Shown: positions 2,668 to 20,803, numbered from the stretch's first letter. The stretch: 45,239 nt of DNA from an uncultured Mycoplasmatota bacterium (GCA_947576095.1 CANPPW010000011.1:1-45239), one strand, 5' to 3'. A program made the numbers and translations. Notes: generated by a model not told the origin, from the sequence alone.

Positions 2668-3804
2668 ATGAAAAAGATGTTTTTGATAACATTTCTTTTA
2701 ATGGTAATTTATTTGCCTGTAAAAGCTGCTCCTAATTGTAATAAATATCAATGTATTACTTGTGTAGCTAAAGTTAAAAACGTAGTAGAGCTTACTTATT
2801 ATGTAAAATCAGATGGCAAGGAAAATATAACAGTTACCCATACCCTAAAAAGAGATGTTGAAAATAGTGCAGTCGATTATGATGTTATTTATGATAATGA
2901 GTATTTTTATAGCAAACAAAAGGATAAACTTGTTTGTCCATCACTTGGATATTTAATTGTTCCTAGTGTAGGTGCCAACCGTGTTACGAAAATTACGATG
3001 AAATTGGTTTTAAAAAAACCTCAAAATGGATCTAGTGGTAATCAGTTTTCGATATCTACTAGTTTTGATAATAAAAAGCCTTATCGCGAAAAAAAATCTG
3101 CTAAAGTTTTGAAGTGTCAGTATGATGGAAGGGTCTTTATAAGTGGCCGTGCGACAGGAAGTGTGAAACTCACTATTGTAAATGATGGAACCAATCTTAA
3201 ATATAATTTTGGAAATTATAAAGTGGGTCAAATCAATGAGGCAAGTCTTTCTATGTTTCAGTCAAATTCCTGTCCCAAGTTAGCAATGAATTGTAATGTA
3301 GAATCCAAAACTTGTAATATTTATAAAGAATTAAATGATCCTATATCAAATGCTGAGAATAATAAACCACAAAAGGGTAAAGATCCTATTAATGCAGATG
3401 ATCTTGAGAGAGATAATGCATTTTGTAAAAGATATGATTGCATGCCATCATCATCAGTAGATCCAAGTACAAGTGCAGCTTTAAAAAGATCAACTTGTGA
3501 AATTATTAATGTAAATACAGGCTTAGGTAGATTTTTAAATAAAATGGTCAATTATATAAGAATAGGAGTTATTTTCTTAGTACTTGTACTTGGAATGGTA
3601 GATTTAATGGGAGCCGTTGGTGCAAGTGAGGAAGGAGCTTTTAAAAAAGCAGGGACAAGATTTTTTAAACGTTTGATTGCAGCAGCTCTCGTATTTTTAG
3701 TACCAGCTATTGTAAATATATTGATATCTCTTATCAATGATGCATCTTGTGCTGGTGACCCTAATTATGATCCAACAGGTGGTATCTTTGATAATCATGC
3801 TTAA
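2668..3804 (+). CDS. Secreted type IV secretion pilin-like (TrbC/VirB2-type) protein with a large ectodomain
   Basis: 378 residues; ATG at 2668 follows AAGGAG. Residues 1-20 form a signal peptide ending near VKAAPNC. A Cys-rich extracellular part (CNKYQCITC near residue 25, more Cys at about 90-280) follows, probably beta-rich. The C-terminal ~90 residues contain two hydrophobic helices (near RIGVIFLVLVLGMVDLMGA and AAALVFLVPAIVNILISLI) separated by a short charged turn (GASEEGAFKKAGTRFFKR). That hairpin is the hallmark of VirB2/TrbC-like pilins. No other conjugation gene is visible nearby, so this is an orphan or a remnant of a mobile element; a function in surface filaments is inference only. 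The assignment rests on the hairpin, not on the ectodomain. Confidence 0.6.
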   Translation: MKKMFLITFLLMVIYLPVKAAPNCNKYQCITCVAKVKNVVELTYYVKSDGKENITVTHTLKRDVENSAVDYDVIYDNEYFYSKQKDKLVCPSLGYLIVPSVGANRVTKITMKLVLKKPQNGSSGNQFSISTSFDNKKPYREKKSAKVLKCQYDGRVFISGRATGSVKLTIVNDGTNLKYNFGNYKVGQINEASLSMFQSNSCPKLAMNCNVESKTCNIYKELNDPISNAENNKPQKGKDPINADDLERDNAFCKRYDCMPSSSVDPSTSAALKRSTCEIINVNTGLGRFLNKMVNYIRIGVIFLVLVLGMVDLMGAVGASEEGAFKKAGTRFFKRLIAAALVFLVPAIVNILISLINDASCAGDPNYDPTGGIFDNHA

Positions 3805-7484: not shown

Positions 7485-7591
7485 ATAATTTATATAGTAG
7501 GAAAGATAAACAAATACTAAAAAGGAAAAATTAATTTATTAAAAAAGTGAAAAAAACAGGAAAGAGTCATATACTAAAATAGGTGATGGCC

Positions 7592-7954
7592 ATGAATAAA
7601 AAAGAAGAATTTAAAAATTTTGTCAGAAAAAATCCTAGACTCATCAAATTTGTAAGAGAGGGGCAAATGGACTGGCAAAAATTTTATGAAATCTATGATT
7701 TATATGGAGAAGAAGAGAATGCCTGGAAAGATTATATAGAACCACCTCCATTAAAGGTGGAAGAAAAAAAAGAAGCTACACCCTCAATGGATTTAGTGAG
7801 TTGGCTTAAAAATATCGATTTAGATAGTATTCAAGATGGAATGAATAGCCTGCAGCGAGTAGTGGGACTTTTAGGTGAATTGACAACAAAAGATACGCCC
7901 ACTACATCGACTGAGTATAAACCAAGACCCCTTTATAAACATTTTGAGGATTAA
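7592..7954 (+). CDS. ylbD: YlbD-like spore coat protein
   Basis: 120 residues from the ATG at 7592. GTG 7583 and ATG 7586 lie in the AGGTGAT ribosome site and are rejected. EFKNFVRKNPRLIKFVREG and WQKFYEIYDLYGEEENAW match the N-terminal pattern of the Bacillus YlbD coat family. The middle is Lys/Glu-rich and the tail Thr/Pro-rich. It overlaps ylbE by one base (TAATG), and rsmD follows, as in the Bacillus ylbD-E-F-G-H(rsmD) cluster but with ylbF and ylbG missing. A coat role is inferred from the family. A CATATACTA at 7568-7576 resembles a sigma-E/K -10 element (CATAnnnTA), but no convincing -35 was found. Confidence 0.75.
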   Translation: MNKKEEFKNFVRKNPRLIKFVREGQMDWQKFYEIYDLYGEEENAWKDYIEPPPLKVEEKKEATPSMDLVSWLKNIDLDSIQDGMNSLQRVVGLLGELTTKDTPTTSTEYKPRPLYKHFED

Positions 7955-8175
7955 TGACCTTAGAGTTACAATTTAAAATAAAAAATAACCCAATGTACCA
8001 AAATTATTTAAGGGAAAATTCATATTGGTATAAAATATTAAATCGTACCCCTGAACAATTTAAGGAATTTGAAAATAAAGCAAAAGAACGTTATCAGGTT
8101 AGAACAACAGATAAAATTAATAAAATATTAAATGCTTTCGAAATGGTGAATTCTATTGTATCATCATTAAAGTAA
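7954..8175 (+). CDS. ylbE: YlbE-like protein
   Basis: 73 residues; its ATG overlaps the ylbD stop by one base, so the two are probably translationally coupled. MYQNYLRENSYWYKILNRTP followed by a helical Lys-rich stretch resembles the YlbE-like family (about 75-80 residues, pattern LR/IREQPxWYRxLSRxP). Biochemical function is unknown. Its position between ylbD and rsmD supports the assignment. The end of the gene carries the -35 of the rsmD promoter. Confidence 0.75.
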   Translation: MTLELQFKIKNNPMYQNYLRENSYWYKILNRTPEQFKEFENKAKERYQVRTTDKINKILNAFEMVNSIVSSLK

Positions 8176-8184
8176 TGCTATAAT
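8156..8184 (+). promoter_or_regulatory. Promoter of rsmD inside the end of ylbE
   Basis: TTGTAT (8156-8161), 17 bp, TATAAT (8179-8184). A ribosome site GAGGTG follows 7 bases later, giving a leader of about 12 nt. Confidence 0.75.
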
Positions 8185-8201
8185 AACGAAGAGGTGCGAC
8201 T

Positions 8202-8750
8202 ATGCGATTTATCAGTGGAAAATATAAGGGAAAAAAAATAGAGGGATATAATATTGTAGGAACAAGACCTACTATGAACCGTATAAAAGAATCTTTGATT
8301 GCAACGATTCAGCCATATATAAAAAATGGCACAATTTTGGATTTATTTGCTGGAACAGGTGCTTTAGGTTTAGAGGCACTTAGTAATGGGGCTAAGGTAT
8401 GCTATTTTGTGGATCAAAATTATAAATGTATTCAATCCATCCAAAATACCATAAAGCAAAACGAAATAAAAGAATTAGCTATCTATTTAAAAATGGATTA
8501 TCAAAAAGCCCTAAGTAAGTGTAAGGAAGAAAAACTAAAGTTTGATGTTATATTTTTGGACCCTCCATATGAGACACATTATATTTCATCAGCCTTATCT
8601 TTCATAAAAACAAATGCATTACTGAAAGAGGATGGAATTGTAGTTTGTGAATATGAAAAAAAAACAATGGAAGCAGATGGCTTTTGTTTGTGGAAAGAGA
8701 AAAAATATGGTAGTAAATATATAGAAATCTATAAGAGTAAACAAAATTAG
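8202..8750 (+). CDS. rsmD: 16S rRNA (guanine-966-N2)-methyltransferase
   Basis: 182 residues, the usual length. Methylates G966 of 16S rRNA with S-adenosylmethionine during 30S assembly. MRFISGKYKGKKIEG and RPTMNRIKESL are RsmD N-terminal signatures. LDLFAGTGALGLEALSNGA (near residue 46) is the SAM-binding loop, and FLDPPYE (near 121) is the catalytic DPPY motif. ATG 8202 follows GAGGTG. coaD (ylbI), the usual next gene in Bacillus, is not here; a terminator and the peptide-export cassette follow. Confidence 0.93.
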   Translation: MRFISGKYKGKKIEGYNIVGTRPTMNRIKESLIATIQPYIKNGTILDLFAGTGALGLEALSNGAKVCYFVDQNYKCIQSIQNTIKQNEIKELAIYLKMDYQKALSKCKEEKLKFDVIFLDPPYETHYISSALSFIKTNALLKEDGIVVCEYEKKTMEADGFCLWKEKKYGSKYIEIYKSKQN

Positions 8751-8762
8751 TTTGCTTTTTTT
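8736..8762 (+). terminator. Intrinsic terminator of rsmD
   Basis: AGTAAAC/GTTTGCT stem (one G-U pair), 7-nt loop, then seven T. It overlaps the stop codon. Confidence 0.75.
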
Positions 8763-8816
8763 GTTGCAAGGATATTTTTCTTATTTCCTATATATTATAG
8801 GTAAGGAGGTGATACA

Positions 8817-10928
8817 ATAAGAAAATATCCTTTTGTAAGACAATCTGGAATAAAGGATTGTGGGGCTGCCTGTCTTCTAATGATTGTTAAATATTATCAG
8901 GGAAATGTTTCTCTAGATAAAATGACGGATCTTTGTAGAACGACAAAAAAGGGGACAAGTGCATACCATCTTATAAATGCAGCAGAATCTTTAGGATTTC
9001 ATGCCAAAGGAATGCACTGTTCTTTTTCAAGTTTATTGGATGATGTTTTATATCCATTTATTGCTCATGTAACAATTGATAATACTTATAACCATTATGT
9101 GGTCGTTTATGAAAATAATCGAAAACAAAATAATTTTCTCATTGCAGATCCTGCAGATAAAATAAAAAAAATTTCCTATCAGAAGTTTAAAGAAATATAT
9201 AACGAAACAATCCTTTTATTTACCCCCACCACCCATATTGTATATGATGGAAAAGAGGTTTCTATTTTCTCATTTTTTAAAAATCTTTGTTTTAAATATA
9301 AATCTTTGTTACGATATTTTATAGTAATCTCACTTTTATTTACAATATTATCTATCTTATCAGCTCTTTACATGAAATATATGATAGAACTTTCACAAAA
9401 TGCAGCCTCTTTTCAAAATATACAGTTTATTTTCTTGTTCTTTTTATGTATTATGATTTTGCAAAGCCTTACTTTTTATTTGCGAAATAGTCTTGCTTCA
9501 CATATTAATCAAAAGATTAGTTTTGTTCTTACAAGCGAAACATTTTCTTATCTTTTATCACTTCCATACCCTTATTTTCGAAATCGTACTACTGGTGAAA
9601 TTCTTTTAAGAATGCAGGATGTAGGCACTTTACAAGCTTTTGTGAGTACATTTATGGGAACTATTTTTATTGATTTTCCACTTTCGATCATTGCTTTATT
9701 TTTTTTGTTTCACTTGCAAGTGTCAATGTTTGTATATATAAGTGTTTTGTGTATATTTTATCTTCTTTTATATAAGATAACTGCTTCATTTTTACCAGCA
9801 ATGATAGAAAAATTTCAAAGAAAAAGAGAAACAGTACACTCCTTTATGACCGAATCTATTGCAGGGTTTGAAACGATTAAAGCATTACATATCAAAAAAA
9901 CAATTATGCAAGTCTTTGAACATTATTATTTGCACTATTTTCAAACGGAAGAATCTTTACATAAGCAAATTAATATTTTGTATCTGATAAAATATATTTT
10001 AGATAAGATAGGATATATATTTTTGATCTATATGGGAGTCATTCTGATTAGGAAGGGGAATTTGACAATACCTACTTTCCTTACTTGTACAACTCTTTAT
10101 TCCTATATTTTACTTCCGTTTCAAAACTTCGTACAAGAAGTTCCCCAGTATAAAAAAGCCATTATATCTCTTAAAAGAATTGGTGAACTATATATATCAA
10201 AACCGAAACAAGGATACATTCATTCAAAAATAAGAGGACATATTATATTTTCAAATCTTACATATACCTATAATGAACAAAATGATATATTAAAGATGGT
10301 ATCTATGGAGATAAGACAGCAAAGTAAAGTGATGATTCTTGGAAAGAGTGGAGTAGGAAAAAGCACTCTTTTAAAAATTTTAATGAAATATTATGATACA
10401 AATAGAGGTATGGTATATATAGATGGCCTAGATCTTTGTGACTATGATAAATCTGTTATTGAAAGAGATATTTGTTATATATCGCAAAATGAAGTTTTGT
10501 TTACAGATTCTCTTTATAACAATTTGACTTTATGGAAAAAAGTAGATCCTCATCATTTACAAAAAATTTTAAAAATATGTGAAATAGAAGAAATCATGGA
10601 TAGCCATTCCCAAGGGTTATATATGCCGATTGAAGAGAATGGATTCAATTTATCAGGAGGCGAACGACAAAGGATTATATTAGCAAGAGCACTTTTATGT
10701 GATTTTGAAGTTTTGTTGATTGATGAGGGTATGAGTGAAATCGATGGTGCAAGAGAATCTCGTATTTTAAAGGGAATATTTTCTTATTGTCTTTGTAAAA
10801 CAATTTTATTTGTAACACATCGTACGCGAAATGCTTCGTTATTTGATCAGATCATTAGGTTGGAAGAAAATGGGCAAATTTTAAATATCAGGAGAAAAGA
10901 GAATGGAAAATATATGGTGCAAAAATAG
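8817..10928 (+). CDS. Peptidase C39-containing ABC transporter (leader-cleaving peptide exporter), AUA start
   Basis: 703 residues if started at ATA 8817. It cleaves double-glycine leaders and exports the peptide with ATP. The N-terminal C39 peptidase has Cys15 (QSGIKDCGAACLLMI), His93 (YNHYVVVYE) and Asp111 (IADPADK). Membrane segments lie at about 165-430. The nucleotide-binding domain has Walker A GKSGVGKST (about 509), signature LSGGERQR (about 612), Walker B VLLIDE and H-loop THR. The first in-frame ATG (8880) is downstream of the catalytic Cys. The frame has a stop at 8802-8804 and no ATG, GTG, TTG or CTG before 8880. AAGGAGGTGAT followed by three bases leads exactly to ATA, which homologous N-termini (M-RKYPFVRQ) support. 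It overlaps the next gene by 26 bases. Confidence 0.88.
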   Translation: MRKYPFVRQSGIKDCGAACLLMIVKYYQGNVSLDKMTDLCRTTKKGTSAYHLINAAESLGFHAKGMHCSFSSLLDDVLYPFIAHVTIDNTYNHYVVVYENNRKQNNFLIADPADKIKKISYQKFKEIYNETILLFTPTTHIVYDGKEVSIFSFFKNLCFKYKSLLRYFIVISLLFTILSILSALYMKYMIELSQNAASFQNIQFIFLFFLCIMILQSLTFYLRNSLASHINQKISFVLTSETFSYLLSLPYPYFRNRTTGEILLRMQDVGTLQAFVSTFMGTIFIDFPLSIIALFFLFHLQVSMFVYISVLCIFYLLLYKITASFLPAMIEKFQRKRETVHSFMTESIAGFETIKALHIKKTIMQVFEHYYLHYFQTEESLHKQINILYLIKYILDKIGYIFLIYMGVILIRKGNLTIPTFLTCTTLYSYILLPFQNFVQEVPQYKKAIISLKRIGELYISKPKQGYIHSKIRGHIIFSNLTYTYNEQNDILKMVSMEIRQQSKVMILGKSGVGKSTLLKILMKYYDTNRGMVYIDGLDLCDYDKSVIERDICYISQNEVLFTDSLYNNLTLWKKVDPHHLQKILKICEIEEIMDSHSQGLYMPIEENGFNLSGGERQRIILARALLCDFEVLLIDEGMSEIDGARESRILKGIFSYCLCKTILFVTHRTRNASLFDQIIRLEENGQILNIRRKENGKYMVQK

Positions 10929-11304
10929 TATTATAGATGAGGCGTTATGGAAGGTCAATCGTCTAATTCTAATATTAGGTATTCTTTTTTTCATCAGTAT
11001 ATTATTTTGTCTTTTTTATCCCTACAAGGAAGAGTATTATTATGCTGCAAAAACTTTAAAAAAAGAAAATCAAGTGTATTTTCAAATGAAAGTTTCTATA
11101 AAAAAATATATAAAACTTAAAAATATGACCATGTATTTAGATGATAAAGCTTATTCATATAAAATTATTCATATAGAGGTAATGGATGAATCAACCTTTT
11201 TATTAACTATATCCTGCTCATATAAAAATCCGTCTTTGATAGAGCAAATCGTTTTTAAGGGAAAAAAGAAAACACTATTACAAAGAATATTACAAGCAAA
11301 ATAG
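10903..11304 (+). CDS. Small membrane protein of the peptide-export cassette (accessory or immunity)
   Basis: 133 residues; ATG 10903 lies inside the transporter's 3' end, behind AGGAG. A single transmembrane helix (about 18-38, LILILGILFFISILFCLF) is followed by about 95 residues that look beta-rich and extracytoplasmic, and a basic end. In bacteriocin loci this position is often taken by an HlyD-like accessory protein of about 450 residues. This one is much shorter and lacks the coiled-coil hairpin, so it could be a reduced accessory protein or the immunity protein. No family recognised. The overlap and order imply one operon with the transporter and the two peptides. Confidence 0.65.
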   Translation: MENIWCKNSIIDEALWKVNRLILILGILFFISILFCLFYPYKEEYYYAAKTLKKENQVYFQMKVSIKKYIKLKNMTMYLDDKAYSYKIIHIEVMDESTFLLTISCSYKNPSLIEQIVFKGKKKTLLQRILQAK

Positions 11305-11318
11305 AGAGGATGATTTTT

Positions 11319-11459
11319 ATGTATGAACTTACTAAAGAGGAATTACAAAAAGTGAAAGGTGGAGAATTAGGAACTGGAACTATATTTTTAATTTCTGGGG
11401 CAATTGTTTTTATAATTGGTGTTATTGATGGTTATTTAAGACCAGAAAGATGTCATTAA
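11319..11459 (+). CDS. Double-glycine leader peptide 1 (bacteriocin-like precursor)
   Basis: 46 residues. The leader MYELTKEELQKVKGG fits the C39 substrate pattern, with Leu/Val positions and GG at 14-15. The predicted mature peptide is 31 residues: a hydrophobic segment (TIFLISGAIVFIIGV) with GVIDG (a GxxxG motif) and a tail RPERCH with one Cys. GxxxG in a short hydrophobic peptide is typical of two-peptide class IIb bacteriocins. Lies 14 bases after the membrane protein, with a GAGAGGATG ribosome site. A signalling role cannot be excluded. Confidence 0.8.
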   Translation: MYELTKEELQKVKGGELGTGTIFLISGAIVFIIGVIDGYLRPERCH

Positions 11460-11471
11460 AAGGAGAAGGTT

Positions 11472-11639
11472 ATGGAAGAACTTACAAAACAGCAATTGCT
11501 TAAAGTTAGGGGAGGGGCTATAAGTGCTACTTATTTAAATGCTATTGTAAAAGGAATTGATGCTTTGTTTGACTTAGGCAGGAGCCTTGGAAGTTCGATT
11601 AAACAAATTGTAACAGGAACCTCTTGTCCTGCACCTTAA
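11472..11639 (+). CDS. Double-glycine leader peptide 2 (bacteriocin-like precursor)
   Basis: 55 residues. The leader MEELTKQQLLKVRGG is closely similar to that of peptide 1. The predicted 40-residue mature peptide is amphipathic (YLNAIVKGIDALFDLGRSLG), has a GRSLG GxxxG motif, and ends TSCPAP with a single Cys. Twelve bases separate it from peptide 1, with AGGAGAAGG as ribosome site. Being last in the operon with a partner peptide, it probably acts with peptide 1; this is inference. Confidence 0.8.
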   Translation: MEELTKQQLLKVRGGAISATYLNAIVKGIDALFDLGRSLGSSIKQIVTGTSCPAP

Positions 11640-11796: not shown

Positions 11797-12000
11797 ATGA
11801 GTAAAGTAGTTGTCAGAAATGGTAATGTTGATGGGGCACTCCGTACTTTTAAACAAAAAAATCTCAGAGATGGTTCTTATAAGAAAATAAGAAGCATTCA
11901 AGATGGTTATATGAAACCTGGCGAAAAAAGAAGAGCTGCTAAAAAAGAAGGCACAAAAAATAGCCGAAAAAGAGAAAGATTATCAAATAGAGCCGTATAG
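11797..12000 (+). CDS. rpsU: 30S ribosomal protein S21
   Basis: 67 residues. Component of the 30S platform near the anti-Shine-Dalgarno end of 16S rRNA. VVVRNGNVDGALRTFKQ is the conserved N-terminus and KKEGTKNSRKRER the basic tail. ATG 11797 follows GGGGGTG. It is followed 27 bases on by yqeY, the usual Firmicutes pair. Confidence 0.95.
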   Translation: MSKVVVRNGNVDGALRTFKQKNLRDGSYKKIRSIQDGYMKPGEKRRAAKKEGTKNSRKRERLSNRAV

Positions 12001-14938: not shown

Positions 14939-15017
14939 ATATTTCCAGAATAAATTCTATTTGAAGTTGACAATGGGGAAGGCTTTTTTTATAATATTAT
15001 TAGAAAGTAGGATATAT

Positions 15018-16190
15018 ATGAATAGAGAAAAAGGTTTTACATTAATTGAATTGTTAGGTGTTATAGCATTGCTTGCACTATTATCTTTGCTAGTATCTGT
15101 GCCAGTTACAAAACATATGCAAGAGGCAAATCAAAAGGCATGTGAAGGACAATTAAATAATATTGTTTTAGCGGCTAAACAGTGGGGAGAAGATCATAAA
15201 CTAGATTTGCCAGAGGAAATAGGAACACAACTTGTGTTATCTTTAGCTGAACTAAAAAGGGAAGGGTATATAGAAGAAGAGTTTAAAAATCCTATCACAA
15301 AAAATAATTTTTCTGATGAGTTGCAAGTCATAGTTACTAAAGAAGGTAAAAGATATTGGTCTTATGATGTGGTTGCGTCCAACTCTGTAAGAGCAGATCA
15401 AATATCAAAGATAGACTTATTCCATGGGCTTAATGGTGATAATCAGCCATTTAGTGGGGATTATCATTATATAGGTATGAATCCCCATAATGTACTTCAT
15501 TTTTCTGAAGCTTGTTTTAGCATTGTAAATATAGCGAAAAACGGAAGTTTAAAATTAGTATACGAAGGTCCAGTTTCAACAAATGGAAGCTGTGAACATG
15601 TAAGGAGTTCTTCCTCTGGAAAACTGGAAGTGTCGCAGCCATGGAATGCAAGTAATGTAAATGATTGGAAAAATCCCAATACAACAATCCGAAAAACTTT
15701 AGAAAATTTACAAGATAAACCTGATCTTTTACACATTAGAACAAGTGATTTAGAAAAATTAGAGGATGCAACTTTTTATGTAGGAGCCGCAGGTACAGGT
15801 CCTAATGGTTCCCTATTGAATGATATACAAACAGAACAAAGTAATTCTTATATAGGGAAAGTAGGAACTTTGAATGTTACAGACTATGTAAAGGTTTGTG
15901 CTTCTACTCAAGGTGGAGCTCAAAACATAAGCGTTGCTTTCAGTGGTGGATATTGCCCAGGAAGCTATCTTCAAAAAGACTATTCATACTGGTTTATGAA
16001 TGCTCATCCTAACTCCGAAGTTTGGCTTTTTTCTTCAGCCGCCCAAAGCAAGATAGATTTGAAATACCCTAATACAGCACTTTATATTAGACCTGTTGTT
16101 TATTTAAAAGCAAATACATATTTAACTGGTACAGGAACAGACGAGGATCCATTTAGAGTAGCAAATGAGAATATATGTCAAAAAAAATAG
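15018..16190 (+). CDS. Type IV prepilin-like protein with a large C-terminal domain
   Basis: 390 residues from ATG 15018. In-frame ATGs upstream (14973 and the frame from 14961) would bury the motif and are rejected. MNREKGFTLIELLGVIALLAL is a class III prepilin signal: cleavage before F6, Glu at +5, then a hydrophobic helix. The following ~100 residues look like a pilin stalk (QEANQKACEGQLNNIVLAAKQW). The rest (about 120-390) has several Cys and Gly-rich loops and ends with IRPVVYLKANTYLTGTGT, a pattern seen in large secreted pseudopilins of gut Firmicutes. No assembly ATPase, prepilin peptidase or platform gene lies nearby, so its machinery must be elsewhere or the gene is an orphan. It stands alone between two terminators. 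Confidence 0.8.
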   Translation: MNREKGFTLIELLGVIALLALLSLLVSVPVTKHMQEANQKACEGQLNNIVLAAKQWGEDHKLDLPEEIGTQLVLSLAELKREGYIEEEFKNPITKNNFSDELQVIVTKEGKRYWSYDVVASNSVRADQISKIDLFHGLNGDNQPFSGDYHYIGMNPHNVLHFSEACFSIVNIAKNGSLKLVYEGPVSTNGSCEHVRSSSSGKLEVSQPWNASNVNDWKNPNTTIRKTLENLQDKPDLLHIRTSDLEKLEDATFYVGAAGTGPNGSLLNDIQTEQSNSYIGKVGTLNVTDYVKVCASTQGGAQNISVAFSGGYCPGSYLQKDYSYWFMNAHPNSEVWLFSSAAQSKIDLKYPNTALYIRPVVYLKANTYLTGTGTDEDPFRVANENICQKK

Positions 16191-20149: not shown

Positions 20150-20803
20150 CTATTTTGTTAAAATTTCAGCTTTGCATAAAGAAACAAAGGCAGGATTACT
20201 ATTATTAGGTCCTACTATTACAACCATGCCAAATTCACTTATTAAAACACTACCATTAGCTACTGTCTGACCACCTGCGTTAATTTCAGCGCCTGCCGTG
20301 CCAACTGGAAGGTATAATCGACTTGCATTTTCACAATCAGTATCACATCCCTCACTAATTGGGCTAGGTGCAGGCAAGTACGTAATAGCATTATTATAAG
20401 TGGAACTCGTTATTGTAATAGAGGCAATTCTACATAATGATATCGCTTCCTGAGGCACACCTTGATTGTTTACAAGTTGTAATAATCCTGAATTGGGGTT
20501 ATTATTAGGACCTGGTAATAATTCTCCTAATCTTCCACTAACATTATTGCCACTTTCCATTGCAATAATAACATTATCTGTAGGATAGAGGATTATAAGT
20601 TGCTGAATTACATTTCTCATTTGTTCTACACAGAAACAACTAGTTGAGTTTGCATTTGATCCGGTAGGTCCAGTAGGTCCCGTTGCACCACCCGATGGGC
20701 CCGTTGGACCCGTGGGACCAGTAGGACCAATCATGGCTAAACATTTTGGCTTACACTTTTTATCATGTTCTATTTTTCTAATTGCTTTATCATAACAATC
20801 CAT
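20150..20803 (-). CDS. Collagen-like spore-surface (exosporium/coat) protein
   Basis: 217 residues. The N-terminal ~25 residues are basic with two Cys. A short collagen-like run follows at about 25-48 (MIGPTGPTGPTGPSG, then GATGPTGPTG), interrupted once by GGA. Then comes CFCVEQMRNVIQQLIILYP, a motif frequent in BclA-like and coat proteins of spore formers. The C-terminal ~130 residues are Gly/Asn/Ser/Thr-rich and beta-like. GXT triplets, commonly glycosylated in exosporium proteins, suggest the spore outer layer. ATG 20803 follows GGAG, and a sigma-K-like promoter lies directly upstream. Monocistronic and convergent with the TPR gene. Confidence 0.8.
   Translation of the reverse strand: MDCYDKAIRKIEHDKKCKPKCLAMIGPTGPTGPTGPSGGATGPTGPTGSNANSTSCFCVEQMRNVIQQLIILYPTDNVIIAMESGNNVSGRLGELLPGPNNNPNSGLLQLVNNQGVPQEAISLCRIASITITSSTYNNAITYLPAPSPISEGCDTDCENASRLYLPVGTAGAEINAGGQTVANGSVLISEFGMVVIVGPNNSNPAFVSLCKAEILTK

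Follow-up and report, generated by a model that had tools for sequence, protein, structure and literature searches.

Class IIb bacteriocins are two-peptide systems, and all characterised members carry GxxxG-like motifs (PMC6382864). In the literature searched, the pairing of their two helices through GxxxG is still mostly modelled, and neither a class IIb bacteriocin with an intermolecular disulfide nor class IIb partners with one cysteine each are described. The locus considered here lies in a window (the whole stretch of DNA that was analysed) of 45,239 nucleotides from an uncultured Mycoplasmatota bacterium (GCA_947576095.1, CANPPW010000011.1:1-45239), which is contig 11 of a 1.16-Mb draft genome. 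It encodes two small GG-leader precursors, A and B, behind a C39 exporter, and carries the sequence-level features that define class IIb; it would work like a bacteriocin of that group. As in lactococcin G and plantaricin S, EF and JK, the precursors are adjacent, both peptides have a GxxxG motif and one helix each, and the exporter is of the C39 kind; unlike those systems, each partner has a single conserved cysteine at fixed spacing, the system is nearly core in its family, and the family has a B relative, peptide C, in place of a classical immunity protein (PMC6382864).

Resemblance to described families is limited. Against Pfam and curated models of specific bacteriocin families, A and B scored below every cut-off. 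For instance, A reached 22.1 bits against a cut-off of 37 for NF038034 (lactococcin G-beta/enterocin 1071B), A and B reached 14.6 and 12.7 bits against 21.5 for TIGR03949 (lactobin A/cerein 7B), and they reached 21.6 and 12.4 bits against the gathering score of 27.1 for PF10439 (Bacteriocin_IIc). By these models, both peptides would be placed outside the curated families that they resemble. The leader model TIGR01847 did recognise A, with 16.6 bits (cut-off 15.7), and sequence searches against solved structures gave weak matches only (E >0.05), of which the plausible ones were leaders of GG peptides. For B, the best outside match (38% over 45 residues, E 0.03) lies on the plasmid NZ_CP102146 of Streptococcus suis. 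This plasmid carries a Blp-like class IIb array that likewise has GG peptides whose helices are of the IGKxxG type, together with a leaderless neighbour that holds a similar segment; in contrast to the cassette, it shows no conserved tail cysteine and has an accessory plasmid location, and the match is weak. Among the many class IIb-like peptides at that locus (L195, 3483-3809), the leaderless segment FEVGKEVGQTL resembles FDIGKQTGRAL of the preceding GG peptide, much as C resembles B.

Other comparisons concern the exporter and the use of cysteine. PCAT1 and ComA (PDB 4ry2, 8hf4) align with the window's exporter over their full length, through C39, transmembrane and ATPase domains, but are distant from it, and the exporter of the window's family comes with a minimal barrel protein or none. 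The mycoplasma exporter Mbov_0121 (NF045998) also matches over its length, MAG1140 (NF045999) is a weak match for the small protein, and mycoplasma- and spiroplasma-like loci also have a small protein after the exporter; the window's two proteins nevertheless both fall below the respective cut-offs. No A-B pair occurs within 1.5 kb in the mycoplasma C39-exporter loci. In mycoplasma-like, spiroplasma-like and other Bacilli genomes (L282, L283, L284, L285 and L299), a C39 exporter adjoins what is presumably ybeY, in some cases with era as well, and a small MAG1140-like protein is present in some of these loci. This would be a housekeeping-linked peptide exporter. Bactofencin A is said to contain an intramolecular disulfide. 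Its cluster resembles the cassette in having an unmodified peptide, a C39-type exporter and a functional cysteine, and differs in having a thioredoxin-type helper, whereas the window's cassette has no helper and one cysteine per peptide (PMC7616364). The literature searched holds no report of an A-B system in RF39-type bacteria. A large class II bacteriocin atlas, IIBacFinder (PMC12648078), exists and may already include A and B as predictions.

Layout of the cassette

The cassette occupies positions 8817-11639 of the plus strand and consists of the exporter, a 133-residue accessory protein, A and B. Each part that the sequence-only reading had described, that is, the C39 exporter and two tandem precursors, was found in its place. 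The exporter gene (8817..10928, +) encodes a C39 peptidase/ABC protein of PCAT type, an assignment based on Pfam domains (Peptidase_C39 124 bits, ABC_membrane 92, ABC_tran 86), start analysis and the match to PCAT1 (4ry2), its best solved relative (full-length alignment, E 2.4e-84). Its C39 domain is fused to ABC transmembrane and ATPase domains, the arrangement by which PCATs are recognised. TIGR01193 and NF045998 were also matched, both below cut-off.

The first ATG of the exporter gene (8880) falls after the catalytic cysteine, and start analysis found no ATG, GTG or TTG start ahead of that residue. Translation apparently begins at an ATA codon at 8817, behind GGAGGTGA; a strong Shine-Dalgarno sequence, AAGGAGGTGA (8803..8812, +), can be read directly 4 bases 5′ of this codon. 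Because the apparent start codon is non-standard, gene callers would lose the exporter's catalytic cysteine. Apparent starts of this kind were seen in about 10 of 119 loci, from several genera and mostly behind a strong GGAGGT-type Shine-Dalgarno sequence: ATA in the window, L066, L068, L069, L082, L146 and L166, ATT in L085 and L167, and ACG in L153 and L185. The survey of starts covered the exporter gene, where they are possibly a means of limiting expression.

The gene for the 133-residue protein (10903..11304, +) sits between the exporter and A and overlaps the end of the exporter gene. Its product is predicted to comprise one transmembrane helix and a beta barrel, AlphaFold2 giving one long helix and a small barrel (pLDDT 92.8), and is a weak relative of mycoplasma MAG1140 (NF045999, 18.6 bits against a cut-off of 35). 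Structural matches include AcrA (Z 7.1), Spr0693 (Z 6.6) and MacA (Z 6.1), with unrelated barrels at similar Z. The match to membrane fusion proteins is barrel-like, and the protein is too short to hold lipoyl and hairpin domains. Both the weak MAG1140 match and the small protein at the same place in mycoplasma-type loci point to adaptor homology, which is a lead only, since unrelated barrels score alike. Of the loci that have A, 36 yielded an accessory open reading frame (ORF) and the rest yielded none.

Precursor A (11319..11459, +) is composed of the GG leader MYELTKEELQKVKGG and the mature part ELGTGTIFLISGAIVFIIGVIDGYLRPERCH, in which a hydrophobic helix with GVIDG is followed by the tail RPERCH; an alternative in-frame ATG at 11310 is possible. 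Precursor B (11472..11639, +) has the GG leader MEELTKQQLLKVRGG and the mature part AISATYLNAIVKGIDALFDLGRSLGSSIKQIVTGTSCPAP, with GRSLG in its helix and the tail TSCPAP. Each mature peptide thus shows the one GxxxG and the one C-terminal cysteine that had been ascribed to it. AlphaFold2 predicts a helix from residue 19 to 48 of B (mean pLDDT 77), which would place Cys52 just past the helix end.

On the left, the cassette is flanked by YlbD, YlbE and an RsmD-like methyltransferase (8202..8750, +; PF03602), and on the right by ribosomal protein S21 (11797..12000, +; PF01165, TIGR00030) and then by what is presumably a YqeY-like protein. Either flank is kept in part of the window's family: the RsmD-like order is shared by L064, L065, L066, L068, L069, L070, L073 and L074, and the S21 order recurs in several loci. 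Elsewhere, the window encodes a secreted, Cys-rich protein of 378 residues with a weak T4SS_pilin match (2668-3804), a 409-residue protein with a pilin-type N-terminal methylation motif (14961-16190; PF07963) and, on the minus strand (20150-20803), a 217-residue protein with a short collagen-like stretch, GPTGPTGPTG.

Conservation and distribution of the peptide pair

With HMMs of A and B made from roughly a dozen loci, the pair was recovered next to the same exporter at about 50 loci from other genera. In total, 151 distinct A-B pairs were collected, nearly all of them directly adjacent and, at nearly all loci, behind a C39 exporter. Chance ORFs are ruled out by the roughly 150 pairs in other genera. 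In an alignment of 53 relatives of A, the GG is invariant and F31, G34, G38, P42 and C45 are conserved in at least 90%; among 51 relatives of B, the GG, G36 and G40 are invariant and C52 is conserved in at least 90%. In each peptide, GxxxG and the tail cysteine are therefore conserved nearly as strongly as the cleavage site. The motif is present in 146 of 148 A and 147 of 148 B peptides, and exactly one cysteine occurs in the mature part of 137/148 A and 140/148 B. Spacing is fixed as well, with 6 residues between GxxxG and the cysteine in A (144/146) and 11 in B (146/147).

Both tail cysteines are found in 149 of the 151 pairs and in 13 additional loci. The two exceptions are not single losses: in L088, B ends at the contig end, while in G050 it is a second, duplicated pair from which both tails are missing. 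This second pair (L043, 3981-4251) lies behind the first and has one internal cysteine in each peptide. A shifted disulfide through these residues was considered and rejected, as it would stand as a single instance and the two residues are not opposite one another about GxxxG. In G020, a stop codon precedes the Cys tail of A, and B and C are on a separate contig. Relatives with only one cysteine conserved, or with neither, were to have counted against the sequence-only reading; apart from G020 no such case turned up, and the outcome of this check favours that reading. Two loci have genes inserted between A and B, namely NUDIX-like genes in L066 (G002, 7544-9771), where a second, partial C copy follows downstream, and a methyltransferase-like gene in L064 (G021, 7568-8586).

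The two peptides also diverge together. In 28 genomes, A and B distances correlate with r 0.60, compared with about 0.3 for A or B against exporter distance and 0.21-0.25 for A or B against ribosomal S2 distance. Controlled for S2 and exporter distance, the A-B correlation was 0.55 in the 28 genomes (p 0.001 by permutation), and with the mature parts alone it was 0.51 (p 0.001, permutation); exporter identities are near 30%, where the distance signal is close to saturation. The A and B leaders are clearly homologous. Given the similarity of the leaders and the adjacency of the genes, part of the correlation could come from their being inherited as one unit, and co-divergence is support for physical pairing, short of proof. 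With both cysteines in 149/151 pairs, fixed spacing and this correlation, the claim that A and B, each with conserved GxxxG and tail cysteine, belong together is strongly supported.

Peptide A occurs in 134 of 145 genomes, and 133 of 144 genera, of the window's family, a group of uncultured Bacilli with reduced genomes of about 0.8 to 1.7 Mb; among high-quality genomes the count is 107 of 113. Beyond the family, only weak leader-type matches to A were seen, and good B matches were confined to it in a class-wide search of 296 genomes. When 98 relatives were searched for the exporter, nearly all same-family genomes had exactly one exporter relative, and two genomes outside the family passed the same threshold. 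The eleven family genomes without A are mostly also without a full-length C39 exporter: three show exporter pieces that are incomplete or run into the end of a contig, G007 carries a divergent exporter, and the rest gave general ABC matches only, or none. Where matching records carry a name, they are labelled as uncultured Bacilli, Tenericutes and Mollicutes, of gut and other origin, or as Candidatus Onthousia, Faecisoma and Pelethosoma. We take these lineages to belong to the RF39 group, and the hosts of the cassette are probably anaerobic. For RF39 members, reduced genomes and, in most cases, a cell wall are predicted (PMC10868615, PMC7301438).

As almost every family member carries it, the cassette probably serves the family as a conserved weapon or signal and is no local oddity. 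Correlation with ribosomal S2 distances is weak but significant (r 0.26), so inheritance is at least partly vertical. Small two-peptide systems are rarely retained, as this one is, across almost all genera of a gut lineage with reduced genomes. A mobile or plasmid-borne trait was considered and rejected: A was absent from the plasmids and phages searched, no B relative was confirmed in viral contigs, and plasmids gave the one weak S. suis match for B. Mycoplasma-type genomes were likewise rejected as carriers of B, the matches there being limited to the leader and the first helix and lying in unrelated ORFs of about 95-141 residues. For example, Mollicute-type genomes (TGA = Trp) at L108, L109, L110, L111, L113 and L114 encode a GG-leader protein of this length (xSGALLNGI...) that resembles B in those two parts alone and in several cases lies directly ahead of ribosomal protein L21.

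Peptide C

Directly after B, beside 73 of the 151 pairs, lies a leaderless peptide of about 40-60 residues, termed C, with a Lys-rich start, a hydrophobic stretch and then GxxxGTxxR. Profile comparison (hhalign) identifies C and B as relatives (94.7%, P 5.6e-8), and the comparison of A with C gave no match. Among collected C peptides, GxxxG is present in 63/63 and a tail cysteine in 45/63, counts that lean towards the motif because the search model was seeded with peptides picked by eye beside B. The window has no C, and a search for a copy elsewhere in its genome gave no match. At 75 places without C after B, no common alternative small immunity ORF was found; four more divergent C-like ORFs follow B in L060, L147, L188 and L214.

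The known immunity proteins for two-peptide bacteriocins sit in the membrane; their architecture varies, and they have between one and four membrane segments (PMC6957408). C may sit in the producer's membrane and occupy A, which makes it a candidate immunity decoy; one half of the toxin, in membrane-tethered form, might then protect the producer. About half of the loci have no C next to the pair, so many producers are without recognised immunity.

Interpretation of the pair and its cysteines

From the computed cassette, cleavage motif, conservation, spacing, co-divergence and B-C homology, we infer a secreted two-peptide system of class IIb type, with a parallel GxxxG pair, a possible disulfide, membrane attack and protection by C; our belief in this reading as a whole is evenly balanced with doubt. 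The C39 domain would cleave both precursors behind the Gly-Gly and the ABC portion would export them, with the small barrel protein, where present, serving as a minimal adaptor. Once exported, the hydrophobic helix of A and the cationic amphipathic helix of B would pair via their GxxxG faces. Given a cysteine at a fixed distance after each GxxxG, a parallel pair would put both tails on the same side, where a disulfide could clasp them. The pair would most likely insert into the membranes of competing, probably related, bacteria and would have bacteriocin activity, while C, a membrane-anchored B relative that keeps GxxxG and often the cysteine, would probably protect the producer by occupying A. 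The roughly 150 natural pairs with fixed GxxxG-Cys spacing offer a direct handle on helix pairing.

A disulfide-linked A-B heterodimer, as proposed by the sequence-only reading, would be compatible with the paired cysteines and their spacing, and, if true, would freeze the pair for structure work. An invariant cysteine cannot separate such a linkage from other uses of the thiol. Among the family genomes searched, none yielded VKOR or DsbB and a single one, other than the window's genome, yielded a DsbA-like protein (PF13462), so that no dedicated disulfide enzyme is known in the family; the bond could form spontaneously or via other thiol enzymes. The fullest version of the idea, a covalent two-peptide bacteriocin fixed in a whole uncultured family, with C as a tethered B copy that captures A via GxxxG and often the cysteine, is doubtful. 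A substantial share of probability, though less than an even one, goes instead to a two-peptide system whose thiols do not join A to B and serve in homodimers, in a mixed disulfide with the target or with C, with metal, or in S-modification such as lipidation. The scarcity of disulfide enzymes agrees with this, C too often keeps its tail cysteine (45/63), and a lone invariant tail cysteine is the expected look of a modification site. Such uses sit less well with the constant one cysteine per partner at fixed spacing, with a cassette that no modifying enzyme accompanies, and with the duplicated G050 pair, which lost both tails together.

Bacteriocin genes normally have a patchy distribution; near-core status throughout a family is unusual for one. 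Presence in nearly every genus, with about half of the loci lacking a recognisable immunity gene, argues for caution about the bacteriocin reading and gives some weight to a conserved secreted signal or envelope component with a housekeeping role and no part as a weapon. The counts of A across genomes, genera and high-quality genomes favour that role, as do the single exporter kept in reduced genomes, the partly vertical inheritance seen against S2, and the loci without C. Yet no sensor kinase or regulator adjoins the cassette, signals usually need one peptide, and two co-secreted GxxxG helices with a B-like membrane peptide fit attack and self-protection better. A non-killing role is thus unlikely on balance, and keeps a distinct minority share given the near-core status of the cassette and the many producers without C. 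Far less probable is a pair of independent single-peptide bacteriocins with a common exporter. Their clearly homologous leaders and shared exporter would suit that arrangement, but the two are almost never apart (in G020 they are on separate contigs), GxxxG and cysteine are conserved in complementary fashion, and their co-divergence exceeds what species and exporter distance account for.
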